Below the pieces are notes generated by a model. That model made no database searches, had not been told where the DNA came from, and saw only the letters and a program-made list of their open reading frames with translations. Of a stretch of 34,905 nt of DNA, positions 6,263 to 32,850 are shown in pieces (the stretch's first letter is position 1; every line of letters starts with the position of its first letter). The DNA is from Haloplasmatales bacterium 4B (lineage in GTDB: Bacteria > Bacillota_I > Bacilli_A > Haloplasmatales > Haloplasmataceae), in NCBI GenBank assembly GCA_003586005.1, contig NSKI01000025.1, positions 1 through 34,905 on the forward strand, written 5' to 3'. Position numbers and translations under genes: made by a program.

Positions 6263-6532
6263 ATGCAAGTAATTATTAAAGTTTAAAAAGGTATCTTAGA
6301 GTATATCAATGACGTTAATGAGGAAAAGATTAAAAAACCAAGTAAATGTCCTAATTGTGGTAAAGAAAATAGTCTCCATCATAATGGTGTTTATAAAAGA
6401 AATATTATAGATGATAATCAAGAATTTCGAATTATTTTAAGATTCCTTTGTAAATATTGTTTAAAAACTGTTTCCTTATTACTATCGCATAGTTTCTTAA
6501 AATCATTTAGGTCTCCATCAATAATTGTATAG
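6263..6532 (+). pseudogene. zinc-ribbon transposase N-terminal fragment with in-frame stop
   Basis: An ATG at 6263 follows AGGAGAA, but the eighth codon is TAA. The frame then continues through a zinc-ribbon-like region: 'KCPNCGKENSLHHNGVYKR' and 'FLCKYCLKTVSLL', that is CxxC...CxxC with the usual His/Asn-Gly spacing. This is typical of the N-terminal domain of several transposase families in Bacillota. From about 6480 the sequence no longer fits that family and abuts the IS1182-like fragment on the opposite strand. Confidence 0.55.
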
Positions 6533-6946
6533 TTTCTCTCTATTAGTTGTACAAGCTTTCTTCCATACCCAAGTATATTTATTGGCATTAGCTTCAAATT
6601 TAGAACCATCTATGTATGCAATATCTGTATTTACATTATCTTTTTCAAAGATATATTGATTAATATCGTAAAATATTTCTTCAATACTACATTTTAAGTA
6701 ATTATTAATGAAATTAGAGAATGTCATATGAGTAGGTGTACTATTCTCGTTTCTCAATAAATACATAAATCTGATATCTGTTTTACATAAAGCTTCTAGT
6801 TCTCTTAAAGATGTATATCCTTTTGTCATAAAACCAAATAGTGTTACCTCTAATAAAGTGACTAAAGGAATAATTGTTTGAATATCAATTGGCAAAACTA
6901 ATTGTTTTGGTGTACAATTATTCATATAATTTAGTATTTTGTTCAT
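6510..6946 (-). pseudogene. IS1182-like transposase, internally deleted and truncated
   Basis: The minus-strand frame from 6946 reads 'LPIDIQTIIP', then jumps straight to 'LVTLLEVTLFGFMTKGYTS', skipping roughly 40 residues normally present between these motifs. It continues through 'LRELEALCKTDIRFMYLL' and the first catalytic block 'DIAYIDGSKFEANANKYTWV'. It breaks off near 6510, before the rest of the DDE domain. There is no ribosome binding site. Family assignment rests on the YIDGSKFEANANKYTWVWKK-type motif. It cannot be active. Confidence 0.7.
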
Positions 6947-9112: not shown

Positions 9113-9745
9113 TTTTATAGTATATTTCTTTACTTCTGATTCAAATATGTCTGAAAACACAATATAAAAACCAAATAGTGATGTTGGTAGAAAAATTAGA
9201 ATAATTAATTGACTAGTTTCTAAAAGAAGTATCATAAAAGCTATAGAAGATAATACCGACAAAAATCCTCGTATGAAATGTGAATTTAGCATCAGGAATG
9301 AAATTTTATATATATCTCGCTTTTTTTTATCAAAACTAACGGTTAGCTGTAAAGCAGATATAAGTAAAATGCCAAATAATTGATATAACATGAGTAATTG
9401 AATTAACAAGATAACACTAATTATATAAGGATTAAAATAGAATTCAAGTATCTCATTATAATAAAACATATTAAGTAAAAGAAAAGCAATCATAATAATA
9501 ATCGGAAATAACACTTGAAATGATTTAATTACTCTACCTTTAGTAAAAGTGAAAAAAGTAAAAAGAATTCCTTTATATTCTTTGAATATATAAAATCTTC
9601 TCATATAATTTAGTTCACTTACAAGGAGTACTGGAAATAAAGTCATTAAACTTAAAATAGAAATAAGAATAAAAACAATATTAGTCAGTAGCAGACTATA
9701 TATGACTTCGAAAATAATAAATGCTTTTGCTAATCCTCTTTTCAT
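9110..9745 (-). CDS. DUF624 (YesL-like) membrane protein
   Basis: A 211-residue protein with about five hydrophobic segments. It has the size and layout of the DUF624/YesL family, whose members accompany carbohydrate ABC transporters in Bacillota and have no established biochemical role. Visible family-like features are the 'LLLTNIVFILISILSLMTLFPV' first-helix region (given here only as about residues 18-39) and the 'FFTFTKGRVIKSF' cytoplasmic loop near 67-79. It starts 24 bases after the MalG-type permease stop, with AGAGG six bases upstream of the ATG, so it is the last gene of the operon. A terminator overlaps its stop codon. It may help transporter assembly or sensing; that is inference from context. 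Confidence 0.72.
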   Translation of the reverse strand: MKRGLAKAFIIFEVIYSLLLTNIVFILISILSLMTLFPVLLVSELNYMRRFYIFKEYKGILFTFFTFTKGRVIKSFQVLFPIIIMIAFLLLNMFYYNEILEFYFNPYIISVILLIQLLMLYQLFGILLISALQLTVSFDKKKRDIYKISFLMLNSHFIRGFLSVLSSIAFMILLLETSQLIILIFLPTSLFGFYIVFSDIFESEVKKYTIK

Positions 9746-9769
9746 AATATACCTCTATTTTTAACCTCA

Positions 9770-10636
9770 TTATCCTTTTACAGCACCAGCTGCAATACTT
9801 TCAACTAGAAATTTAGAAAAAATAATGAATATAATAACAATTGGAAAGATTGATACAAATAACCCTAAATATAATGGGCCCTGGTTTTCAAACCACACTT
9901 TTGAACCTTTTAAGTTAGCTAATTGTAGTGGTAAAGTAAACTTCTCCGGTGAGTTTAAGATTATTCTTGCACCTAAATAGTTGTTCCATGAACCAATAAA
10001 AGTAAATATTGACATAGTTGATATCCCTGGCATCATTAAAGGAATACCGATTTTATGGAACGTATACAATTCAGAAGCCCCATCGATTCTTGCTGAGTCT
10101 ATAATTTCCTTACTAACCGTTCCAGAAGCATACTGTCTTAAAAAAAACACGGTTCCAACTGAAGCGATTGCTGGAATAATTAACGGTATGAAAGTATCAA
10201 CAAATCCTAATATGCTCATCCATTCATAGAATCCTAAAAATGCAAGTTGTGATGGAACCATCATAAATAATACAATAAAACCGAACAGTAATTTATTTGC
10301 TTTAAAATTATATGTATAGAATCCATAAGCTGTCAAAGCAGAAAAATAACCTGATAAAATTGTAACTGATATTGATATAAACATTGAGTTGATAAATCCT
10401 CTTTTTATATCTGTGAATTGTTTTAATGTCTCCCAGTTATCCATAAAATATCCACCGGGAATTAAAGATAACCCATTTTTTTGAATGGAAACACCACTTC
10501 TTGTAGCGTTCATTAAAACCATCACGAATGGAATTAAACAAATGATAACTAAAATACCTAACAAAATATATAGTAATGTATATACGGTTTTTCTTTTTAA
10601 ATTCTCTTTGAATTGGTTTGAATATTTAGTGTTCAT
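9770..10636 (-). CDS. carbohydrate ABC transporter permease, MalG/LacG type
   Basis: This 288-residue membrane protein has six predicted helices and the cytoplasmic EAA loop that docks the ATPase: 'IIDSARIDGASELYTFHKIG' near residues 177-196, with the Gly at the expected place. It pairs with the permease encoded just upstream and overlaps it by 11 bases, implying translational coupling. GGGGGCG seven bases upstream of the ATG supports the start. It ends 'SIAAGAVKG', a typical MalG tail. No ATP-binding subunit is encoded in this locus, so a multitask ATPase encoded elsewhere is expected, as for many Bacillota sugar transporters. Confidence 0.9.
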   Translation of the reverse strand: MNTKYSNQFKENLKRKTVYTLLYILLGILVIICLIPFVMVLMNATRSGVSIQKNGLSLIPGGYFMDNWETLKQFTDIKRGFINSMFISISVTILSGYFSALTAYGFYTYNFKANKLLFGFIVLFMMVPSQLAFLGFYEWMSILGFVDTFIPLIIPAIASVGTVFFLRQYASGTVSKEIIDSARIDGASELYTFHKIGIPLMMPGISTMSIFTFIGSWNNYLGARIILNSPEKFTLPLQLANLKGSKVWFENQGPLYLGLFVSIFPIVIIFIIFSKFLVESIAAGAVKG

Positions 10637-16703: not shown

Positions 16704-16730
16704 CCAAAAACCACTGTTATGTAACAGTGG
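16704..16730 (-). terminator. terminator of the first YjcZ-like gene
   Basis: Perfect inverted repeat AACCACTGTTA / TAACAGTGGTT with a two-base centre, followed on the minus strand by GGTTTTTGG. It lies 12 bases past the stop codon. Confidence 0.75.
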
Positions 16731-16741
16731 TTGACATAATT

Positions 16742-16882
16742 TTAATATCCGTATCCTCCACCATAGCCATACCCACCGTAGCAAGTACATCCGATAATAG
16801 CTAAAAGGATAAATAATACAAGAATAAATGCATAAGAGTTTCCGTATCTATAACCATGTCCGCCATGTCCGCCCTCAGGCAT
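16742..16882 (-). CDS. YjcZ-like Gly/Tyr-rich sporulation peptide
   Basis: A 46-residue peptide with a Gly/His-rich N-terminus (MPEGGHGGHGYRYGN), one hydrophobic helix ([16 protein letters not shown]), a CTC motif and a Gly/Tyr-rich tail ([12 protein letters not shown]). This layout matches the YjcZ family of small sporulation proteins in Bacillus, known as spore-associated, with no known catalytic role. GAAAGGAGG lies seven bases upstream of the ATG, and a SigK-like promoter sits 32 bases upstream. It is one of two such genes flanking the DUF3179 gene. Confidence 0.85.
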   Translation of the reverse strand: MPEGGHGGHGYRYGNSYAFILVLFILLAIIGCTCYGGYGYGGGYGY

Positions 16883-16913
16883 AATAATTTCCTCCTTTCA
16901 ATTTTCCTTAATA

Positions 16914-16940
16914 TATACTATGGTATTCATCAAAAGAAGT
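16914..16940 (-). promoter_or_regulatory. SigK-like promoter of the first YjcZ-like gene
   Basis: Minus strand: AC, 16 bases, then CATAGTATA. This matches the mother-cell sigma-K pattern (AC - 16/17 - CATAnnnTA) and lies 32 bases before the start codon. Confidence 0.5.
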
Positions 16941-17054
16941 AAGTACACTAGCACTGTTTTTCAAAGATTTTGTAATTTTTTTTAAATAATTAAATTAGTA
17001 GAATAAGAATAAATTTTAATTCTATACTTATATAAGTTTAGAGGGGCTATTAAC

Positions 17055-17195
17055 ATGATTGAAATACTTAGCGATACTACAAATTGTGATATTAATATTG
17101 ATACTCGGATTTTCACCTTTAGAATTATCAGTATATCAAGCATTATCGCTATTATTATTAGTAAAGATTTAACAACTGGTGGTATAGCTAAGTAA
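17055..17195 (+). CDS. possible small ORF, doubtful
   Basis: An ATG at 17055 lies nine bases after GAGGGG and opens 46 codons (MIEILSDTTNCDIN...). A TTG four bases later opens a second frame that reads as one very hydrophobic segment (LKYLAILQIVILILILGFS). Only one, if either, is real. The hydrophobic frame looks more protein-like, but its start is weaker. Confidence 0.3.
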   Translation: MIEILSDTTNCDINIDTRIFTFRIISISSIIAIIISKDLTTGGIAK

Positions 17196-17306
17196 TTTCT
17201 CCACTTTATAGTACATTTAAACATATAAATTATAACTTTATATTTATCTATATCAATTTGTTAAGTTATACATATTTTATAATATAAAATCCCAAGGAGG
17301 AAAAAA

Positions 17307-18377
17307 ATGAATGATTCTAATAAACAGCAAGAATTAGTTCAATTTCAAACACAAAACTGGAACACAAATTGGAATAAAAGTTTGATTTCATTTAATGAGA
17401 TAGTTCCAGCTAAACAAAGAGATGCCATTCCATCAATTGATGACCCACAATTCGTAAGGATTAGTACCGCAAGAAACTATCTAAGCGATTTATCTCCAGT
17501 TATTGTAGTTGTGATAGGTAATGAAGCACGAGCATATCCACTTGATATTTTAATGTGGCACGAGATTGTAAATGATACTATTAAAAATAATCCCATTGCG
17601 GTATCTTATTGTCCATTATGTAGTTCAGAGTTTGTCTATTCAAGAGTTGTAAATGGAAATACACTTGATTTTGGAACATCTGGACTTTTAAGAAATTCAA
17701 ATTTAATCATGTATGATCGACAATCTGAAAGTCTATGGCAACAATTCAATGGTCAAGCAATTGTTGGTGATTATGTAAATAATAGTTTAACACCAATTCC
17801 AGCAAATGTTGTTAGTTTTAAGGATTTTTATACAACTTATCCAACTGGTATTGTCCTCTCACGAAATACAGGGTACTTAAGAAATTATGGTACGAATCCA
17901 TATGTTAACTATGACAACTTAACCAACCAACCTATGTTTTTTAAAGGTATTACTGATAAAAAGTTACCTGCTATGCAACGAATTTTAGGAATAGAATTTA
18001 ATAATGTTTCCAAAGCATATCCATTGGTAAGTTTACAGAAAAATCCTATTATTTATGATAAAATTAATGATAATGAATATGTAATATTTTCTCTTTGTTG
18101 TATGAAATCTGCTTTAAATAAATCTAATATTAATGAAGGTAAAAACATCTATATGACAGGAGTCTTTAGCCCGTATGTAAATGGGCAACGATTAAATTTT
18201 ATTTTAAATCAGTTTGGCGAAATCATTGATACATTTACGAATAGTTCTTGGAGCATCTTGGGTAAGGCATTATCAGGTCCATTAAGCGGAATACAATTAA
18301 CACCAATTAATCATGGTGATGTATTTTGGTTTGCTTGGGCTGCATTTTACCCAAATACTATTATTATGAATGTATAA
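17307..18377 (+). CDS. DUF3179 domain-containing protein
   Basis: A 356-residue protein of the DUF3179 family. The hallmark block is 'ARAYPLDILMWHEIVND' (about 74-90, His85), followed by 'PIAVSYCPLCSSEFVYSR' with Cys102 and Cys105 in a CxxC, then 'LDFGTSGLLRNSNLIMYDRQ' and 'SLWQQFNGQAIVGD'. It ends with 'FWFAWAAFYPN', the usual family ending. Most DUF3179 proteins carry a signal or anchor; this one has none, so it may stay in the mother-cell cytoplasm or be placed on the forespore. AAGGAGG precedes the ATG. It lies between two YjcZ-like genes on the opposite strand and shares a bidirectional terminator with the second. Biochemical function is unknown for the family; the CxxC and His could bind metal or haem (inference). 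Confidence 0.85.
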   Translation: MNDSNKQQELVQFQTQNWNTNWNKSLISFNEIVPAKQRDAIPSIDDPQFVRISTARNYLSDLSPVIVVVIGNEARAYPLDILMWHEIVNDTIKNNPIAVSYCPLCSSEFVYSRVVNGNTLDFGTSGLLRNSNLIMYDRQSESLWQQFNGQAIVGDYVNNSLTPIPANVVSFKDFYTTYPTGIVLSRNTGYLRNYGTNPYVNYDNLTNQPMFFKGITDKKLPAMQRILGIEFNNVSKAYPLVSLQKNPIIYDKINDNEYVIFSLCCMKSALNKSNINEGKNIYMTGVFSPYVNGQRLNFILNQFGEIIDTFTNSSWSILGKALSGPLSGIQLTPINHGDVFWFAWAAFYPNTIIMNV

Positions 18378-18434
18378 TTTTAAAAGCACTATCCTTTAAA
18401 TTAGATTATAAAAAATGTAATTAATAATAAAACT

Positions 18435-18467
18435 AAAACTACTGAATAAATATATTCAGTAGTTTTT
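18435..18467. terminator. bidirectional terminator
   Basis: A 14-base stem (AAAACTACTGAATA / TATTCAGTAGTTTT) with T-runs on both strands. It ends the DUF3179 gene (plus) and the second YjcZ-like gene (minus). Confidence 0.9.
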
Positions 18468-18508
18468 ATTTTCGGAATAGAAATGCACATATAACTATAT
18501 ATTAGGAG

Positions 18509-18658
18509 TTAAAAGTGTACACAAGTACATCCAATTATTACTAATAATATAAATAATACTAATATTAATGCATAACTACGCCCGTATCCATAGCCACCGT
18601 ATCCGCATCCGCATCCGCATCCGCCATAGCCACCGTATCCGTATCCACCGTAAAACAT
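18509..18658 (-). CDS. second YjcZ-like peptide, Gly/Tyr/Cys-rich
   Basis: A 49-residue peptide. The N-terminal half is Gly/Tyr-rich with an inserted (GC)n run ([18 protein letters not shown]). The hydrophobic helix ([19 protein letters not shown]) is nearly identical to that of the first YjcZ-like peptide, so the two are paralogues with swapped ends: here the Gly-rich part comes before the helix. Five cysteines suggest cross-linking in an oxidised spore coat (inference). AAAGGAGG lies nine bases before the ATG. A CATATATTA element (18687-18695) resembles a SigK -10 box, but the AC element is 14 bases away rather than 16-17. Confidence 0.82.
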
Positions 18659-18695
18659 TTAATACACCTCCTTTTTATTTCAATAATAATATATG

Positions 18696-18947
18696 CTTTT
18701 TAATTAATTGTTACTGGATATATTTCCCACGTATACTAAAATTGATTAACTCAACTATATTTAAATAATCATTTGGACCTACTATTCCTAATAATGAAAT
18801 TTACCGTAAATCTCTTCCCTAAATTTTTACTTTTACAACTATACTATCATGACAATCTATCTATAACGAACAAATATTTACCTAATTAGTATTGATTTCG
18901 TACAAGTATAGTTATAGTATTTCCATATACCCCATAGTTAAAAACAC
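18696..18947. other. gene-free stretch
   Basis: No gene or recognisable element is seen between the second YjcZ-like gene and the rlmD-like fossils. Confidence 0.4.
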
Positions 18948-19034
18948 CCCCATACTCTCGATATGTGGAAACATATAAATATCTTCAAATATTTTGCTTA
19001 TTTTTGACTAGCAATACGACACTCTCGACGTGTG
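18948..19034 (-). pseudogene. two fossil copies of the rlmD 3' end
   Basis: Minus strand 19008-19034 is identical over 27 bases to 27991-28017, which encodes the last residues of RlmD (HVESVVLLV). A more diverged copy at 18948-18982 reads 'DIYMFPHIESMGVFL', matching the RlmD ending 'VDMFPQTAHVESVVLL' with a deletion. Both are on the same strand as the intact gene. The rest of the gene is absent. Confidence 0.6.
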
Positions 19035-19045
19035 TTTAAACCTTA

Positions 19046-19222
19046 GTCTTTCTAGTTTCCCGCAAAATAAACGGTAGATGAACTTTTTTGCAATTTATAA
19101 TTAGTATTCTTGTTTTTATTCGGTTTTCTCCTGTTAAATTTGTATAATATAATTCAACATTATTTTCTTTAGCTTTGTAATGTGCTTCTTAAACATAATA
19201 ACCATCATCTGTAGAGCGTAAA
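19046..19222 (-). pseudogene. transposase fragment
   Basis: The minus strand reads 'TDDGYYV*EAHYKAKENNVE' then 'LYYTNLTGEN', with one in-frame stop. This resembles the 'DGYY...A...GI.L..TNLTG' block in the middle of IS1182-type transposases. It ends at a TAA after about 58 codons. Confidence 0.45.
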
Positions 19223-19461
19223 TTGTTTAAATATATTTATGGCAATCACAAATTTCTTATTGAATAGTAATGTTTTATATATTGATTTATTTTAATTTTT
19301 TTTGTGGACTAATCATAATATCCATGTTTTTGTAAATAATGAAAAGTTTATATGCTTAATACTTATTTTAAATTTACTAAGTAAAAATTTTATTATTGAC
19401 CTATTTAGTTATAGCTTATTTGAATACTATATAGTATAAAAAAAGAAGGAGGTGGAAATAC
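19223..19461. other. AT-rich upstream region of the first surface-family gene
   Basis: No gene. A 14-base palindrome ATACTATATAGTAT (19424-19437) lies 24 bases upstream of the next start codon and could be an operator. Confidence 0.35.
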
Positions 19462-19767
19462 ATGTCAATTCCTAATATTCCAGATATTAATCCCGATATT
19501 ACAATTACGATTGATGATACTATTAACTTATTATTAGCTTCTATCGCATTAGAAGAATTAGGTCTAGCCCATATTCTAAATGCAGAGGGTGAAAAAATCC
19601 AGGCTGCTTTAGGTACTTTAACTACTGGGACTCCCCCATTAGCAACAAGTATACAAGACTTAATTGATATCGATAATAGTGTACAGGATACAATAAAAAC
19701 TATAATTAAGAAACAAATGTTACTTCAATTTAAACTTGAAGAAACAAGTAACTTAATTAGTTCTTAA
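19462..19767 (+). CDS. small surface-type protein, 'LLASIALEELGL-NAEGEK' family, copy 1
   Basis: A 101-residue acidic protein. The N-terminus 'MSIPNIPDINPDI' is followed by a helix 'TINLLLASIALEELGLAHIL' and 'NAEGEKIQAALG' (residues 25-57), a Pro/Thr linker, then 'LIDIDNSVQDTIKTIIKKQM' and 'LLQFKLEE'. I know this arrangement from small proteins and from C-terminal domains of collagen-like surface proteins in spore-forming Bacilli and Clostridia. A role in the spore or exosporium surface is inference. There is no signal peptide. AAGGAGGTGG precedes the ATG by nine bases and a terminator follows at 19794. Two paralogues lie downstream, each with its own untranslated spacer, so they look like separate transcription units. 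Confidence 0.75.
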   Translation: MSIPNIPDINPDITITIDDTINLLLASIALEELGLAHILNAEGEKIQAALGTLTTGTPPLATSIQDLIDIDNSVQDTIKTIIKKQMLLQFKLEETSNLISS

Positions 19768-19793
19768 ACCACAGTCTTTTAAGTAAGTATTTT

Positions 19794-19828
19794 GAAGGTT
19801 CTTAATTAATTACAAGAACTTTCTTTTT
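19794..19828 (+). terminator. terminator of surface-family copy 1
   Basis: Stem GAAGGTTCTT / AAGAACTTTC (one G-T pair), then TTTTTATTAT. Confidence 0.7.
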
Positions 19829-19865
19829 ATTATAAAATAATTTTGGTTTTGATACCAGGGAATAA

Positions 19866-20006
19866 TATTATCCGTCTGAGATTGATTATATGGACGAACA
19901 TGCGTGTAAAGTTGTAGAACTAATTAATAATATAAATTTTATAAGCAAAAACCCTAGCGTGAATAAGGTTTTCACCAAAATGGGTTTGGACCTATTAACA
20001 GAATAG
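19866..20006 (+). pseudogene. C-terminal gene remnant of unknown family
   Basis: An open stretch of 46 codons without a start site, with protein-like composition (SEIDYMDEHACKVVELINN...KVFTKMGLDLLTE), ends in TAG. I do not recognise it; it may be the tail of a lost gene. Confidence 0.3.
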
Positions 20007-20194
20007 TAGAAATACTACAAATCATAAAATTAGATATATATTGAAAAGGGTAATTTATATAAGTTTATTTTATGTAATAAAATTTAAATAACAAAGATAG
20101 CTTCATCTTTTTGTAAAAAATAACTATATTTAGGTGAAAGTACTAACACTTATTATGAATACCTATATCATATTATAGAAAGGAGTTGATTGTA

Positions 20195-20545
20195 ATGGGT
20201 ATGCCTAATATTCCTGAAAAAATCTGCACTAACATTAATATTGATCGTAAAGATCTAGTTGATTTGTTACTTATCTCTATCGCATTGGAAGAACTTAGTT
20301 TATCTCATATAATAAATGCTGAAGGTGAGGTAATGCAGTTATTTATTAAGGAATTAAAATGTCATAAACAAACTAGTTCTTATGATCTAATAAAAATGAA
20401 TCGAAGCGTGTCTGATACTCTAAGAATCGTTTTAGAAAAAGAAAAAACTTTAAAAGATAAGTTAATTGAAGTTCTCCATTTTAATGAAGATATTGACTGT
20501 GATGATCACTATAAACACCATTACTATAAAAATAAAAATGATTAA
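20195..20545 (+). CDS. surface-type family, copy 2 with His/Lys-rich tail
   Basis: A 116-residue paralogue of the protein at 19462: 'MGMPNIPEK', then 'LVDLLLISIALEELSLSHII' and 'NAEGEVMQ'. The second half also lines up ('LIKMNRSVSDTLRIVLEKEK'). It differs by a tail rich in Asp, His, Tyr and Lys (DDHYKHHYYKNKND), which could bind metal or nucleic acid. The frame is open from a TTG at 20186, but AGGAG at 20181-20185 fits the ATG at 20195 with nine bases. It is more diverged than copies 1 and 3. Confidence 0.72.
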   Translation: MGMPNIPEKICTNINIDRKDLVDLLLISIALEELSLSHIINAEGEVMQLFIKELKCHKQTSSYDLIKMNRSVSDTLRIVLEKEKTLKDKLIEVLHFNEDIDCDDHYKHHYYKNKND

Positions 20546-20771
20546 TACTTTCTAAATTTTTCTGTTCTGTTCAAAATATGTACTGATGACTAAATCGGTG
20601 TATTTTGGGTTTTATGATATCAATCATTAATGCAACAATGACTATTTATAGATAGATATAGCGTTATTACTTATCAAGATATTCATTGCAGACACCTAAA
20701 GTCAACTTAAATTTGACAAATTAGTTATTTCAGTACCTTGTCTTGAACACAACCAATTTCTAAAAGAAAAT
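20546..20771. other. gene-free spacer
   Basis: No gene is seen between surface-family copy 2 and the hairpin at 20772. Confidence 0.4.
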
Positions 20772-20807
20772 ATATAATCTTTGAGTCCAAAGATTATATA
20801 TTTTTTA
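20772..20807 (+). terminator. intrinsic terminator
   Basis: Stem TATAATCTTTG / CAAAGATTATA, a short loop, then TTTTTT. It is about 230 bases after copy 2 and could end a longer 3' untranslated region or a small RNA. Confidence 0.6.
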
Positions 20808-20884
20808 TTTATTGGGCTAATTAAATAGGCATTCATCTGTTAATTATATATTATATTATAAGGGTATCTAAGGAGGAATAATAT

Positions 20885-21334
20885 GTGAATAAAAATACTT
20901 ACCCCAAAATAAATGTTAATATAGACGTTGATAAAGATAAAAATCAAAATGATATTCCTAAAAATATCTATGCTGATATAAAAATAGACGGAGAAATTAA
21001 TCGAGATGAAATTATTAAAATTTATTTTGATACAATGAATTCTAATAAAGATAGTCTAAGATTATTTTTTGAGAATGAAAGAGAATTTATATGCCTTCTA
21101 AATAAATTAAAGCATTTTATAACTCCCGAACGATTTGATAAAATTAATAAAAGTTTTTTAGAAGTAAAAAACCTTTTATATGACACTGCCAATATACAAA
21201 ATGAAAAAATGAGATTAATAAATATGTGGTATAAAGATAACAAGAATGACTTTCGCTTTATTGCCTACGTACTTTTTATTTTATTTGTTATTATAGGATA
21301 TAAAAAACCAAATTCCTATTATAAAATCCATTAA
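20885..21334 (+). CDS. acidic helical protein with C-terminal membrane anchor
   Basis: A 149-residue protein of unknown family. The N-terminal 35 residues are very rich in Asp, Lys, Asn and Ile ('PKINVNIDVDKDKNQNDIPK'), a helical middle follows ('FFENEREFICLLNKLKHFIT'), and one hydrophobic segment (about 125-141, 'FIAYVLFILFVIIGYKK') lies ten residues from the end, giving a tail-anchor topology. AAGGAGG is followed by an ATG whose next codon is TGA. The working start is therefore the GTG at 20885 that overlaps it (ATGTGA). The acidic Asp/Ile start recalls the 'NPDI..DI' N-termini of its neighbours, so a common spore-surface setting is possible, but this is inference. Confidence 0.6.
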   Translation: MNKNTYPKINVNIDVDKDKNQNDIPKNIYADIKIDGEINRDEIIKIYFDTMNSNKDSLRLFFENEREFICLLNKLKHFITPERFDKINKSFLEVKNLLYDTANIQNEKMRLINMWYKDNKNDFRFIAYVLFILFVIIGYKKPNSYYKIH

Positions 21335-21341
21335 AAAGTTT

Positions 21342-21371
21342 TGACATTTTTTATCATTCTAGGTAAAATAC
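21342..21371 (+). promoter_or_regulatory. sigma-A-like promoter upstream of surface-family copy 3
   Basis: TTGACA, a 17-base spacer and TAAAAT, starting a few bases after the preceding stop codon and about 70 bases before the next ATG. Confidence 0.5.
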
Positions 21372-21438
21372 CTATTCAACTATTAGTATTTTATAATATA
21401 CTGTATTGCTTTGTATAGAACTTTGGGGGTGAAAATTA

Positions 21439-21741
21439 ATGAGTATGCCTAATATACCTAATATTAATCCTGATATTAATCTCTCGTTTAGTGAGACAAT
21501 AAACTTATTATTAGCATCTATCGCTTTTGAAGAATTAGGATTAAGTCATATATTAAATGCAGAAGGCGAGAAACTTCAAGCTGGAATATGTTTAGCAAAA
21601 TGTTTCGATGACTTAGTTATATTAAATCAAAATGTTACAAAAACATTAAGAGCTGTTATTAAAAACCAAATGTTACTCCAATTTAAACTTGAAGATACTA
21701 TAGATTTACTGCTATATAATCTTCATCATCAAGTCGTTTAA
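21439..21741 (+). CDS. surface-type family, copy 3
   Basis: A 100-residue paralogue closest to copy 1: 'MSMPNIPNINPDINLSF', 'TINLLLASIAFEELGLSHIL', 'NAEGEKLQAG', then 'LVILNQNVTKTLRAVIKNQM' and 'LLQFKLED'. The Pro/Thr linker of copy 1 is replaced by a shorter segment with two Cys (GICLAKCFDD), and the end is His/Gln-rich. The second helix pair 'KxQMLLQFKLE' is preserved between copies 1 and 3, which argues for selection on both. GGGGGTG lies about eight bases before the ATG. No terminator is obvious downstream. Confidence 0.75.
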   Translation: MSMPNIPNINPDINLSFSETINLLLASIAFEELGLSHILNAEGEKLQAGICLAKCFDDLVILNQNVTKTLRAVIKNQMLLQFKLEDTIDLLLYNLHHQVV

Positions 21742-22590: not shown

Positions 22591-23028
22591 ATGAAGAAAA
22601 TATTTTTTGTTTTAATTATCATGATAGGTACTCTTTTGACGGGTTGTAAGAAAGCTAATTTTCAAGAGGTAGAAATAGAATTAAAGGCTATAGATATAAA
22701 AAAAATAACTTTTTTGAATGGCTCTACTTCTGTTGAGTTAGAATATCCATTTGAAAGTGATACATTGGATATTATTACTAAAATTATAAATCATATATCC
22801 TCTCTAACTTTTTACGAAGAAATTATTGATGAGGGTAATTGTGATGGCGGAAATACGGTCATTTATCATTTGTATACTGAACAAGGTGATCATTTTAAAT
22901 TGTATACCATTTCTGCATCAAATAAAGATAAATGTACAAGTTATCTGGTGATACGTAAAAACGATGAAATTTTAGGGTATTCTGAAACGGGTTCTCAAAC
23001 TTTGTATGATTTATTCTTGACTTTATAA
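22591..23028 (+). CDS. small lipoprotein of unknown function
   Basis: A 145-residue protein with a lipoprotein signal: MKKIFF, a hydrophobic core and lipobox LTGC with Cys19. The mature part is a compact domain of alternating strands ('EVEIELKAIDIKKITF', 'TVIYHLYTEQGDHFKLYTIS', 'SYLVIRKNDEILGYSETGS') with two further Cys that could form a disulfide. It would be anchored on the outside of the membrane. GAGGG lies nine bases before the ATG. It has its own promoter and terminator, so it is a single-gene unit. I do not recognise the family. Confidence 0.72.
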   Translation: MKKIFFVLIIMIGTLLTGCKKANFQEVEIELKAIDIKKITFLNGSTSVELEYPFESDTLDIITKIINHISSLTFYEEIIDEGNCDGGNTVIYHLYTEQGDHFKLYTISASNKDKCTSYLVIRKNDEILGYSETGSQTLYDLFLTL

Positions 23029-23048
23029 AATTATCACAGAATTTATGG

Positions 23049-23078
23049 AAAAAGCATTTAAAAATAAATGCTTTTTTT
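23049..23078 (+). terminator. terminator of the lipoprotein gene
   Basis: Stem AAAAAGCATTTA / TAAATGCTTTTT, an AAAA loop and a T-run. It works in both directions. Confidence 0.85.
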
Positions 23079-23185
23079 AATTTATGAAAATTGATATATA
23101 TAAGGAATTTTATTTTAAACGACAGAAAATGACATTATCCTAAGTCGATATAGGTTACTATTTGTTTATTAAAGGAGGAAATAAA

Positions 23186-24304
23186 ATGAAAAGAATAGTT
23201 TTATTAATTTTAATGTTGTTAATTGTATTATCAAGTTCTTCATTAGATGTAAATGCAAAAAGTACCAAACAAAATGAATATCATGAAGTAGCATATCGCT
23301 TCTTTAATTCCTTGAGTTCATTTAAGGAAGAGTGGTCAGAAGCATCAATAGAAGAAACTATAAAATTACGTGGGGATTTTGATGCTGAGAGAGGTTACCT
23401 TTACAGAGTGTATGATAACGAACAACAAAAAGGATATATTGTTGTAACACATTTAAATAATAAAATTCAAGTAACTGAAGCAACATTCACAGGTAAGGAT
23501 CCAATTATAGAAAACCATAAAAAAAATTATTACATAGCACCATTTGGATTTTATACTAAAGATGAATATAACAAAATTATATCTTCGCTCAATGAAATTA
23601 TTAATCCAGATTCGAATGATAATGTTACTGAAATCCCAATATTACGAGATATTTGGCCGTGGACAAATCCTTTAGATGAAAAGTATTTAGTTCCAATTCC
23701 TGATGATCTTTACTATACTTTTTCTGGAAGTTTTCATACAGAACAGAAAATATTAGAAACGCCTGAATATTTTAACTTTTCGTATGGTCCTGTTAATAAT
23801 GGATGTGGACCGACAACAGCTGCAATGTTAACTTCGTTTTTTGATAGGATAGCACTTCCTAATTTAGTTGCTGGTACACTTCCACTTCAACATTCCGATA
23901 ATAAACTAGCAGTAGATAATCATATTATTCTGATGGCTGATTATCTTAACACGTGCAATGATATGGAAGGTGATTTAACTGATGGAGCAAATTGTACAGG
24001 AACTTACTATAATGATGCAAAAAGCGGATTAAATCAATATTTTGGTGACCGAGGTTATTCAGAATATGACGCATATTATAACACAAATCTATCCGATTAC
24101 TCTAAAGTAATATCCGCAGGAAATCCAGTTTACTTAAGATTATCAACAACAGGTGGTGGACATGCAGTATTGGGAATAGGACAAGGAAGTGCTTATCCTG
24201 GGGATAACTTTTTAATTGTAAGATATAATTGGACGACACGTGATGGTGAATATTGGGTAGCACAAGATGAGTTTAATGGTTTTGTTTACTTATCAAGAGG
24301 GTAA
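23186..24304 (+). CDS. secreted C39-like cysteine peptidase
   Basis: A 372-residue secreted protein. The signal peptide (about 1-24) has a VNA cleavage site before 'KSTK'. A pro-region follows (about 25-170), with 'GYIVVTHLNNKIQVTEATFT' like the propeptides of papain-fold bacterial proteases. The catalytic domain shows Cys207 in 'NNGCGPTTAAMLTSFFDR', His326 in 'GGGHAVLGIG' and Asn348-Trp349 in 'VRYNWTT', the Cys-His-Asn order of peptidase C39-like domains. It could be a protease or a peptidoglycan/peptide hydrolase outside the cell; substrate unknown. AAAGGAGG lies seven bases before the ATG at 23186; eight upstream in-frame codons overlap that site and are excluded. No transporter or peptide precursor lies alongside, so a bacteriocin-processing role is not supported. 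Confidence 0.78.
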   Translation: MKRIVLLILMLLIVLSSSSLDVNAKSTKQNEYHEVAYRFFNSLSSFKEEWSEASIEETIKLRGDFDAERGYLYRVYDNEQQKGYIVVTHLNNKIQVTEATFTGKDPIIENHKKNYYIAPFGFYTKDEYNKIISSLNEIINPDSNDNVTEIPILRDIWPWTNPLDEKYLVPIPDDLYYTFSGSFHTEQKILETPEYFNFSYGPVNNGCGPTTAAMLTSFFDRIALPNLVAGTLPLQHSDNKLAVDNHIILMADYLNTCNDMEGDLTDGANCTGTYYNDAKSGLNQYFGDRGYSEYDAYYNTNLSDYSKVISAGNPVYLRLSTTGGGHAVLGIGQGSAYPGDNFLIVRYNWTTRDGEYWVAQDEFNGFVYLSRG

Positions 24305-25006: not shown

Positions 25007-25796
25007 ATGAAAATTGGATCTAATACTTATAAATTAGTTTTACTTGATACAAACGCTTTAAGAGAAATAGTAACTAATACAAAACTATCTGCTAAAGGAT
25101 TCCTACAGAATTTTTTTTCTGGCGAAAAGTTATATGCACCATGCTTTTCTATTTATAATGTAACCGAACTTATACCCTATAAGAATATATATAAACAATT
25201 TTTAGATTTTTTCAGTACAATACCATGTCTCATGATCTTTCCTGCAAAATCAGTTATTCAAGAGGAATATTGCAATTATATAAAGGGATCACAACTTGAA
25301 ATTACAAACAAGATCGCTAATGCCTTTACTCCGCTTATTGATAATAATAGTTACAACTGTAAAAAATTTTTTTATAACTTAGAATCAAATATAAAACTTA
25401 TGGAAACAATTAATTCTGAAATTTCAGGGTTGAAAGATACTGCCAAAGCTTGGGAAAAACAAAGGTATAATACAAAACAACTCTTGGAAAATTTACAGTT
25501 TCCTACGAACATGATTTATGAAAAATTTTATACAACACAGGAAAAAGAAACTAATTATTAAAGACCTAATGAATTGGGGTATTGTACCTAATCAGGATGT
25601 TAACATATCAAAATTGCCTGCATTAAGAATTATGGAATACTCCCAATTTAATCGTGTCTATCTGACAAAAAAGAATATAAAGCCAAACGATGTAATGGAT
25701 ATTACAATAAGTAGCATTATACCCTATATGGATGCTGTTATTACAGAAAATTTTCTAGCTAATATTTATAAAAAAGCTAAAAGGTTTATTCCTTAA
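25007..25796 (+). pseudogene. PIN-like domain protein split by a +1 frameshift
   Basis: Two overlapping frames form one protein of about 260 residues. The first (25007-25561) begins after GGAGG with 'YKLVLLDTNALREI', the first acidic site of a PIN-type nuclease (Asp14). The second (from about 25545 to 25796) carries the C-terminal part: 'NDVMDITISSIIPYMDAVIT', with the second acidic cluster (D..., YMD) and 'ENFLANIYKKAKR'. The frames cross in the A-rich stretch around 25535-25555, where one extra base would explain the break. An extended -10 box (TGATATAAT, 24963-24971) and a good ribosome binding site are present upstream. It may be a recent pseudogene, a sequencing error or a programmed +1 shift. 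No antitoxin gene is adjacent. Confidence 0.65.
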
Positions 25797-26222: not shown

Positions 26223-27245
26223 CTAAATTAAAAAACTTTTTGTAAAAAATTTACTTAATAATTTATCATGCGTAATAATAAATATAATTGAATTTTTATA
26301 TCGGTCAATAATTTCATACATTATTTCTTCAGCAGTGTCATTGTCAATTGAATTTGTAATCTCATCTAAAATGATTACATCGTTATTTTCAAGAAACAAT
26401 CGCGCAATCGCAATTTTTTGTTTATCTCCACCAGAAAGATTTGCACCAGATTCTAGTATTTGGCTATCTAATTTGAAGTTTCCATTAAAAAATTTTTTGA
26501 AAAAATGAATATTGCTTGAGTACTTCCAAATCATCTAAAGAATATGATTTTCCTAAAGTAATATTTTCAAATACACTCATTGATATAATTAGAATATTCT
26601 GAGAATAGTAAGATATCTTACTACGGACTTCATCATTAGAATATTTCCTAATGTCGATATTATTTATTGTCACAGTATCAATTTCTCTAAATTTCAATAA
26701 ATATTTTACTAATGTTGATTTCCCACTTCCTGAAGGACCAATAATACCTACAACATCACCTTTTTTAGCCTCTAAATTAATATCGGTTAATAGTATAGTA
26801 TCACCAATTTTAACTTCTGGAATTTCTAATTTGACATTGGAAATAGTTTTAATTTTTTCTCCATGGTTTACTTCAAGGTTATTTTCTATTTCATTTTTTC
26901 TAAAGTCAAGGACACCTTTTAAATCTCTTAGATTCAGGTTTACTCCCACTAAATTATTAATAGAAGAAAAATAAATATTGAGCAACAATATGATAAGAAC
27001 TACATCAGATATCATTAACTGATTTTTTATTAATAAATAACCAGTTATTACAATCAAAATATTATTAATTAAATTATTTATGATTTTAAAAGTTTCACTA
27101 ACAAAACCTGCTAATTTATTTACCCTGTAAATCTCCTCTTGAATATTTTTAAAGTATTCCTTCCTATTTATTCATTCCATAAAAACTCTAACTACTTTTA
27201 TTTGTGATAGAGTCGTGACAAATTGGATTTTGTCAACTTCAGATA
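26223..27245 (-). pseudogene. ABC exporter (membrane-ATPase half transporter), truncated and frameshifted
   Basis: The minus strand carries the C-terminal part of a fused permease-ATPase. Membrane-domain residues are seen from about 27245 ('FVTTLSQIKVVRVFME', then an in-frame TGA). The last helix and linker follow, then Walker A 'GPSGSGKSTLVKYLL' and the Q-loop 'ISYYSQNI'. The frame breaks at a homopolymer near 26490-26510. The next frame supplies the signature 'SGGDKQKIAIARLF', Walker B 'DVIILDEITNSID' and the H-loop 'IFIITHDK'. The first several hundred residues (the rest of the membrane domain and any N-terminal peptidase domain) are gone. The family resembles bacteriocin/peptide exporters. 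At least three lesions make it a clear pseudogene. Confidence 0.8.
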
Positions 27246-30736: not shown

Positions 30737-30764
30737 TAAAAGGTAAAGGAACACTCCTTTACCT
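30737..30764 (-). terminator. terminator of the yihY-pdaA operon
   Basis: Stem AGGTAAAGGA / TCCTTTACCT followed on the minus strand by TTTTAAATT. It overlaps the pdaA stop codon. Confidence 0.75.
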
Positions 30765-31577
30765 CAAGTTTTTAAGACCATTAACAAATAATGGTTCAGA
30801 CATAAATAGGGTTGTAATAGGAACAAACTCATAGCCTTTTATTCTCAAGTCTATGATAATTTTCTCTAATGCAAGAGCATTGTCTTTTGATACGGGATGC
30901 ATTAATATAATTGCTCCTGGATGAATCTTTTTCATTACTTCATTGTATGCGTATTCCCAACCTCGTTGTTTGTCTATTACCCAATCTTTATATGCTAATG
31001 ACCAAAATATGTTATAATAACCTAATTCGTCAGCTATTTTAAGTGAACGCTCACTAAATCTACCTGATGGTGGCCTCATAATTTTCATTAACTTTTTACC
31101 TGTTAATTCAGTATAGCGATCCTCAAATTTCTTTAATTCAAATGCATAATTTTCTTTATTTAATTTTGTTAGATCCTTATGTGAATAAGTATGATTCCCT
31201 ATAAAATGTCCCTCATTTACCATTCGTTTTACAAGTTCTTCCTCATTATTCAAATAATCACCCACAAGAAAAAATGTCGCATTTACATTGTTTTTCTTCA
31301 AGACATCAAGTATTTGTGAAGTGTATCCATTTTCGTAGCCTGCATCGAAAGTTAAATATACTCGCTTAGAAGTTGTATCATCAATGTAATATGCATTATG
31401 TCTTGAGAGAATTTGTTCATATAATTTTCCGAATTCAGGTCTATTTCCATTTTTTCCTGGTTTCATTCCCCATCCATAACTTCTAGTATCGCTATCTGCT
31501 TGAACATTAACACTAAGTAATAAACATATCATTAGAAATAACATAAATACACCGATTTTTTTAAATTTTATTTTCAT
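30759..31577 (-). CDS. pdaA: PdaA-type polysaccharide deacetylase (spore cortex delta-lactam synthesis)
   Basis: A 272-residue exported protein with an N-terminal signal or anchor (about 8-25, VQA before 'DSDT') and a NodB deacetylase domain. Motif 1 is 'VYLTFDAGYENGYTSQIL', where the GYENG is typical of PdaA; motif 2 is 'GNHTYSH'; motif 3 is 'MRPPSGRFSE'; and the later motif is 'PGAIILMHPVSKDNA'. PdaA removes the acetyl group from muramic acid in peptidoglycan, a step in making the muramic delta-lactam that marks spore cortex for germination. The ATG at 31577 overlaps the last base of the upstream stop (TAATG), with GGGAG nine bases before it, so translation is coupled to the YihY gene. An ATG six bases upstream is too close to the ribosome binding site. 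This is the best single-gene evidence for sporulation here. Confidence 0.85.
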   Translation of the reverse strand: MKIKFKKIGVFMLFLMICLLLSVNVQADSDTRSYGWGMKPGKNGNRPEFGKLYEQILSRHNAYYIDDTTSKRVYLTFDAGYENGYTSQILDVLKKNNVNATFFLVGDYLNNEEELVKRMVNEGHFIGNHTYSHKDLTKLNKENYAFELKKFEDRYTELTGKKLMKIMRPPSGRFSERSLKIADELGYYNIFWSLAYKDWVIDKQRGWEYAYNEVMKKIHPGAIILMHPVSKDNALALEKIIIDLRIKGYEFVPITTLFMSEPLFVNGLKNLR

Positions 31578-32479
31578 TAACATTCACTCCCTTCGGTGTA
31601 TTCATTAATAGTATTTATATTATATAATTTTTCATAAGTGGAAATTTTAACCCTATTAATCGAAATTCCAATTATTAACACATAACTAATAAAATAAATC
31701 CAAACCACAAAAACAATTATTGAAGTAAATGTTTTATAAACTGTCTGATAGTTGGCAAAATTATCAACATATACTTTAAATCCATATGATACAATAATCC
31801 ACCCAAAAGAAACAAACAGCGCTCCTTGATAAACATCTTTTATACGTTGCTTTATATCAGGAATTGAATACATCATGAATATAACTATTGAACTTATACT
31901 AGCTATTCCAATTATAATGTTAAAAAAAGTAAATAAACTACCAACCACAATTAACTTGTATTTAAGATATTGATGTATATAATTACTAAATACTGTTAAT
32001 AAAGTTAAAATCAATATCAAAATTATTAAAAGAAATGTATTTATAAAACTAATAAGTCTAAATTTAATATAATGGGGTCTTGCTTTCACATTATAAATTA
32101 TTAAATAACTATTATAAAATGAAAGATAAATTTTTGAAGCCAAATATAATAATGTAAAGTTTGATAAAGTCATTATACTAATATGCCCTGGGTTGTGATC
32201 AATTAATCTTACTAATATTGTGTAAACATGTGTAGGTAAGATTTCATAAAGGGTAATTAAAAAATCATTATCGTTGTTAACTATTAAAAAAACAACTTCA
32301 AATATCAATGTCACTATCGGTATAAAGGCTAACAAAATAAAAAAAGCTATATAAGGAGCAAGTGAACTTACATCTTTTCGTCTTAGAATCCCTAACAGCC
32401 TTTTTATATAGCCTGTTAATCGAGAATGTCTTTGCATAAATCTATTTATGAATTTATTTTTTTTAATTAACTTCAACAT
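31577..32479 (-). CDS. YihY/BrkB-type integral membrane protein
   Basis: A 300-residue protein with six predicted membrane segments. It shows the family pattern: a basic N-terminus, 'DVSSLAPYIAFFILLAFIPI' at the first helix (about 35-54) and 'QGALFVSFGWIIVSYGFKVY' with 'IIVFVVWIYFISYVLIIG' near the end. YihY/BrkB proteins were once annotated as ribonuclease BN; their real activity is uncertain (transport of an unidentified solute is assumed). I chose the ATG at 32479 because AGGTGA precedes it by five bases; an in-frame GTG three codons upstream overlaps that site. It is cotranscribed and translationally coupled with pdaA. Confidence 0.8.
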   Translation of the reverse strand: MLKLIKKNKFINRFMQRHSRLTGYIKRLLGILRRKDVSSLAPYIAFFILLAFIPIVTLIFEVVFLIVNNDNDFLITLYEILPTHVYTILVRLIDHNPGHISIMTLSNFTLLYLASKIYLSFYNSYLIIYNVKARPHYIKFRLISFINTFLLIILILILTLLTVFSNYIHQYLKYKLIVVGSLFTFFNIIIGIASISSIVIFMMYSIPDIKQRIKDVYQGALFVSFGWIIVSYGFKVYVDNFANYQTVYKTFTSIIVFVVWIYFISYVLIIGISINRVKISTYEKLYNINTINEYTEGSEC

Positions 32480-32571: not shown

Positions 32572-32850
32572 ATGGAATTAGAAAGCGTTAAAATAATTGA
32601 AAATTTTGGTAAATGGAAACAAACACTTCACAAAGCAATTCATATTTCTGAAGCAATAGGAGTTAAAGAAGATAAAGTTGTTGATATCGCAAAAAAAGTA
32701 GGAGACTTTTTATCTAACAATGTTGAAACAGAAAACCCTCAACAACAACTTTTAAAAGATTTATGGGATGTAGGTACTGATTCAGAAAAACATTCTTTAG
32801 CACATATGCTTGTTAAAATGGTTGAACAAGAACATCATAGTATTCATTAA
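32572..32850 (+). CDS. DUF3243 domain-containing protein (YmfJ-like)
   Basis: A 92-residue, helical, acidic cytoplasmic protein. It lines up with the B. subtilis YmfJ type: 'ENFGKWKQTLHKAIHISEAI', 'VVDIAKKVGDFLSNNVE', 'ENPQQQLLKDLWDVGTDSEK', 'AHMLVKMVEQ'. The family function is unknown. AGGAGG lies nine bases before the ATG and a terminator follows at once, so it is a single-gene unit. Confidence 0.85.
   Translation: MELESVKIIENFGKWKQTLHKAIHISEAIGVKEDKVVDIAKKVGDFLSNNVETENPQQQLLKDLWDVGTDSEKHSLAHMLVKMVEQEHHSIH

Follow-up and report, generated by a model that had tools for sequence, protein, structure and literature searches.

A probable spore-surface locus carrying A-type endospore appendage subunits in a Haloplasmatales bacterium

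The region between positions 16,742 and 21,741 of the window, the 34,905-nucleotide stretch of DNA analysed here, is most likely a spore-surface locus built around an A-type endospore appendage fibre (A-ENA, "spore silk"). This reading, which includes proposed roles for the individual components, is given a probability of about 0.8. At its core are three paralogous proteins that, as judged from homology, are A-ENA subunits. A sequence-only reading of the same DNA had described an island of seven genes for two YjcZ-like peptides, a DUF3179 protein, three "LLASIALEELGL-NAEGEK" paralogues, and a tail-anchored acidic protein, and had linked them to the spore surface. Re-checked ORF coordinates place all seven genes at the positions claimed (Table 1). 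The spore-surface interpretation is now backed by a spore-fibre homologue of solved structure, a distribution that tracks SpoIVA, an enrichment of sigma-K-like promoter boxes, and a partly conserved neighbourhood.

No Pfam or NCBIfam model matches any of the three paralogues. A profile built from the three does reach PDB entry 9IHH ("Ex vivo spore-silk A-ENA fibers"), with E=5e-29, and each copy also matches this entry singly, in nearly full-length alignments. Because of these matches, the paralogues are homologues of a solved spore-fibre subunit. Their kinship, claimed before, is confirmed by 44% (copy 2) and 60% (copy 3) identity to copy 1, and the "LLQFKLE" segment is found in copies 1 and 3 as had been noted. 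They are the only A-ENA copies in the 2.26 Mb host genome. Read from sequence, all three subunits lack a signal peptide, which would fit synthesis of A-ENA in the mother cell. The resemblance to 9IHH thus comprises a near full-length alignment, short soluble subunits without a signal peptide, and a sporulating host. Set against 9IHH as a deposited structure, the locus differs in having three plain subunits with differing linkers and tails, two of them Cys-bearing, together with a tail-anchored gene within the cluster and adjoining DUF3179 and YjcZ genes. Searches of the literature by motif and by fibre name turned up no paper on A-ENA. The fibre family is already known, at least as a deposited structure, and the lineage-specific partners, whose roles we infer, are the new part.

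Table 1. Features of the island, with window positions, strand, and supporting evidence.
Feature	Position	Strand	Evidence
Terminator of YjcZ-1	16709..16732	-	terminator search
YjcZ family peptide 1 (YjcZ-1), 46 aa	16742..16882	-	PF09680 E=9e-10; CATAGTATA at -40
DUF3179 protein, no export signal, CPLC and WHE motifs	17307..18377	+	PF11376 E=1e-98; CATATTTTA at -36
Bidirectional terminator between convergent DUF3179 and YjcZ-2 genes	18435..18466	.	-15.1 kcal/mol, z -7.5
YjcZ family peptide 2 (YjcZ-2), 49 aa	18509..18658	-	PF09680 E=6e-11; CATATATTA at -37
A-ENA type I (copy 1), plain, long "GTL" linker	19462..19767	+	9IHH E=4e-23
A-ENA type III-like (copy 2), His/Lys/Asp tail, three Cys	20195..20545	+	9IHH E=2e-14; CATATTATA at -26
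Strong AT-rich terminator hairpin, 3' of type III and 5' of the tail-anchored gene	20765..20806	+	-18.6 kcal/mol, z -6.3
Basic tail-anchored protein, 149 aa, GTG start	20885..21334	+	position in G002 and G007; pI 9.0
A-ENA type II (copy 3), short linker, two Cys, His tail	21439..21741	+	9IHH E=5e-21

The island genes are individually organized, largely as first described. A strong ribosome-binding site had been ascribed to each gene; most have one, while copy 3 has a weaker GGGGGTG. That the genes mostly possess their own terminators is borne out by the terminator of YjcZ-1, the hairpin shared between the DUF3179 and YjcZ-2 genes, and further AT-rich hairpins, which folding also places 3' of copy 1 and, in weaker form, 3' of copy 3. 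The start codon of copy 2 is most likely the ATG at 20195 rather than the TTG at 20186. Both YjcZ-like peptides exceed the curated cut-offs of PF09680 and TIGR01732, and YjcZ-1 consists of one hydrophobic helix flanked by Gly/Tyr-rich ends. The tail-anchored protein does carry a C-terminal membrane helix, at about residues 120-140, but it is basic and not acidic.

Scanning named genomes yields at least 578 confirmed relatives of the paralogues, of which the best 80, kept as 78 loci, have record titles of Bacillales, Clostridia, or unnamed Bacillota. Several A-ENA copies occur at many of the 78 loci. Plain copies are about 100-140 residues long; in others, an N-terminal A-ENA domain is followed by a collagen-like, Thr-rich, propeller-like, or C1q-like part (collagen-like repeats were counted, the remaining labels given by eye). 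These fused forms (for example L026, L051, L082, L041, G002) have the same N-terminal domain and are often clustered with plain copies, whereas the host genome, unlike many relatives, lacks any A-ENA copy with a collagen-like or other tip domain attached. Four kinds recur. Type I has a long "GTL" linker, type II has a short one and in many cases a tail rich in His, type III is more diverged, and the last kind comprises the fused forms. They co-occur within clusters, for example types I, II, and III plus fused copies in L037, L041, and L091. Phage records contain no match to the paralogues, and plasmid records contain one, a collagen-like protein of B. velezensis. Two other arrangements were also seen. 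G194 (L135:7028-9118 and 9541-10518) encodes a 696-aa repeat protein and a 325-aa protein with the A-ENA domain at the C-terminus, the reverse of the usual order, and G005 (L133:4368-13902) has a diverged A-ENA-like gene amid duplicated ATP-grasp and Mur-ligase-like genes.

The sequence-only reading had the three paralogues diversifying after duplication; the phylogeny does not favour such a history within the island. In a maximum-likelihood tree, the window type III pairs with a copy from another genus of the family (G002) with support of 99/95, and the window type II pairs with copies of G002 and G007, two genomes of that genus, with 99/96. A joint group of the window type III and its counterparts from Bacilli and Clostridia is compatible, though without good support (89/68). 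Since each pairs with orthologues from other genomes, types II and III are, on balance, older than the divergence of these genera and not products of duplication within the island, although the AU test does not reject a single clade of the three window copies (p=0.09).

The tie to sporulation is seen in both gene content and promoters. The host genome encodes SpoIVA (E=1e-104) and sigma-K/sigma-E-like proteins, the best of which scores 289 bits, just under the sigma-K cut-off of 298.65. Among 296 genomes of the host class, A-ENA is present in 17 and SpoIVA exceeds its cut-off in 90. SpoIVA accompanies A-ENA in 16 of the 17 (Fisher P=2e-8, a value that overstates independence, as do all P values for co-occurrence with SpoIVA, because the genomes are related), and the exception is a genome that is 55% complete. 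A second draw gives 11 of 11; intended as a draw from the phylum, it covers the same class and overlaps the first, so it is not independent. Asking whether the families follow sporulation ability had been suggested earlier. A-ENA tracks SpoIVA in the host class, and DUF3179 as a family is common in non-spore-formers. Conservation of the neighbourhood, likewise proposed as a check, is partial: the type III, tail-anchored, and type II genes keep their order in G002, but DUF3179 is missing from the 6 kb around each of the 78 named loci.

The -10 box of sigma-K promoters, CATAnnnTA, was sought 20-200 bp upstream of genes. It precedes 58 of 183 A-ENA genes (32%) compared with 73 of 674 neighbours (11%; P=8e-11), with positions that peak at -30 to -60. 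Three of four other motifs are flat, and the fourth, TACAnnnTA, which resembles the box in its letters, is mildly enriched (17% versus 8%). Within the window, the box stands before 4 of the 7 island genes as opposed to 1 of the 16 others, and a first-order shuffle predicts 0.64 such boxes in the island where four are observed (P=0.0002). The boxed genes are those for YjcZ-1, DUF3179, YjcZ-2, and type III; the same search found no box before the island genes for types I and II or for the tail-anchored protein. In B. subtilis, yjcZ belongs to the sigma-K regulon (PMC517825), and the island peptides, over the TIGR01732 cut-off and with boxes of sigma-K type, show no notable difference from the YjcZ family sporulation proteins. 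As promoter-like sequences, these boxes support a predicted late expression of the island in the mother cell.

The DUF3179 protein has 356 residues and matches PF11376 along the whole model (1-292 of 292, 330.8 bits, over the curated cut-off), as its earlier assignment implied. Its described hallmarks are also in place: a CxxC in the form of CPLC (C102, C105), a His within an invariant W-H-E, and no signal peptide. In the family alignment, the first Cys and W-H-E are invariant and the second Cys varies. Selenoprotein surveys include DUF3179 in UxxC/T form (PMC9312934; PMC13188914). The UxxC/T forms (PMC9312934) mark the first Cys as reactive, and since the surveys list them, a thiol redox role is likely for the protein, and a redox role in a coat or exosporium module would be plausible. 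The window protein shares with the family the full-length match, the WHE, the first Cys, and the CPLC motif, and it differs in lacking an export signal. The signal is also absent from the DUF3179 proteins of G006 and G021, whereas six sampled relatives from outside the class (viral contigs, haloarchaea, Deinococcus, Thiothrix) start with a signal peptide or lipoprotein signal as judged by eye. Its predicted structure is poor (pLDDT 38, from an alignment of the window and viral-contig sequences). The DUF3179 gene of G005 (L133:16010-17005, minus strand) has an extra N-terminal helical part, reads CPLS instead of CPLC, and comes to an early end of its frame.

The proposed mechanism extends from the homology and the sporulation tie to roles that are inferred. 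Sigma-K would turn on the island genes late in sporulation in the mother cell, where A-ENA subunits would be made in the cytoplasm and then polymerise on the surface of the forespore. Most of the fibre would consist of type I (19462), with types III (20195) and II (21439) as minor subunits that may cap, branch, or attach it. The tail-anchored protein could tether the fibre to a membrane or seed it there. The DUF3179 protein, with its redox-type CxxC, may control the balance of thiols and disulfides in the coat or in types II and III, which bear Cys, and the YjcZ peptides would be ordinary sigma-K-dependent membrane peptides. A more specific version, in which the lineage has a distinct A-ENA system with a tail-anchored base at the membrane, a relocated cytoplasmic DUF3179 protein that crosslinks or matures the Cys-bearing subunits, and no collagen-like tip, is speculative, and we consider it improbable as a whole.

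Not every gene of the island need belong to the fibre. The DUF3179 and YjcZ genes may lie beside the fibre genes by chance, with DUF3179 acting as a general redox or metal-handling protein; this is a serious possibility, though we lean against it. DUF3179 proteins occur commonly among haloarchaea, Deinococcus, Proteobacteria, and cyanobacteria, and YjcZ genes are numerous and scattered, with 11 in the host genome. In addition, none of the 78 named A-ENA loci (from the best 80 of at least 578 relatives) has DUF3179 within 6 kb, which means that it is not a general A-ENA partner and that any link belongs to the host lineage. Within the host class, however, it is rare. It occurs in 4 of 296 genomes, all four with SpoIVA (P=0.008), and in three of them it shares a contig with an A-ENA gene, at about 1.1 kb in the window, 1.9 kb in G021, and 10 kb in G005, where the chance of a random gene lying so near is about 0.001, 0.004, and 0.006, respectively. 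In the fourth genome, G006, its neighbours include a Met/Gln-rich repeat protein as well as a CotA-type multicopper oxidase (both assigned by eye), and there, as in the window, a convergent YjcZ gene adjoins it. The window and G006 genes, from two genera, also have the box CATATTTTA in common (at -37 in G006), and the missing export signal again sets the proteins of the window, G006, and G021 apart from the sampled outside relatives. Within the family, a tie to sporulation is seen only for the DUF3179 sub-branch of the host class.

The fibre itself and the tail-anchored protein also admit other explanations. In the host, the A-ENA-like copies might serve as packing proteins of the coat or exosporium and build no long fibres. 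The presence of only three plain copies with no tip-fused one, and tails on types II and III unlike 9IHH, would suit such a function, but type I is plain, about 100 aa long, and closely resembles the fibre subunit (E=4e-23), and packing without fibres seems unlikely. The tail-anchored protein, in turn, could be a diverged fourth copy of A-ENA, with an acquired membrane helix, that forms the base of the fibre. In G002, as in the window, type III is followed by a small protein (106 residues) with a hydrophobic helix at its C-terminus and then by type II; in G007, the 3' part of this protein adjoins type II (63% identity), and the end of the contig truncates the gene. Sequence similarity between the window protein and that of G002 is low (z about 2), so the case for their orthology is mainly one of position and build. 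The site of the gene, flanked by types III and II in two genera and beside type II in one more genome, speaks for a fourth copy, as do strands followed by a helical bundle in a low-confidence model and aligned halves of the protein and A-ENA that fall at matching places. Against it, the match to A-ENA is not significant (hhalign P=0.22; an HMM score that does not exceed those of shuffles), and the single-sequence model is poor (pLDDT 49) and without a match in a fold search. Among small membrane proteins near other A-ENA clusters, no clear counterpart was found. Descent from A-ENA is accordingly doubtful, and the preferred reading keeps the protein as a candidate anchor of the A-ENA fibre.

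F-ENA and S-ENA appendages (PMC11952670) are work-alike spore-surface fibres equipped with proteins for the anchor and the tip. In F-ENA, the subunits show a beta-barrel head-neck architecture (PMC11952670), in contrast to the A-ENA sequences, which look mostly helical by pattern. A family without a Pfam or NCBIfam name can now be assigned to spore fibres. With its spread, recurring subtypes, and sigma-K-type promoters, the role of A-ENA is testable in many spore-formers, and the tail-anchored and DUF3179 partners offer concrete candidates for fibre attachment and maturation.

Other features of the window lie outside the island. Transposase fragments (integrase core, DUF772) are found at 211-561 and 6518-6946. 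A small lipoprotein and a secreted C39-like peptidase are encoded downstream of the island (22591-24304, plus strand). Overlapping ORFs of 184 and 92 aa (25007-25796, plus strand) look like one protein broken by a frameshift, and an ABC transporter gene split over two overlapping ORFs (26223-27057, minus strand) looks like a frameshifted pseudogene. A polysaccharide deacetylase (30759-31583, minus strand) is probably similar to the spore-cortex protein PdaA, and a small, probably DUF3243-like protein (32572-32850, plus strand) has CATAACTTA at -46.
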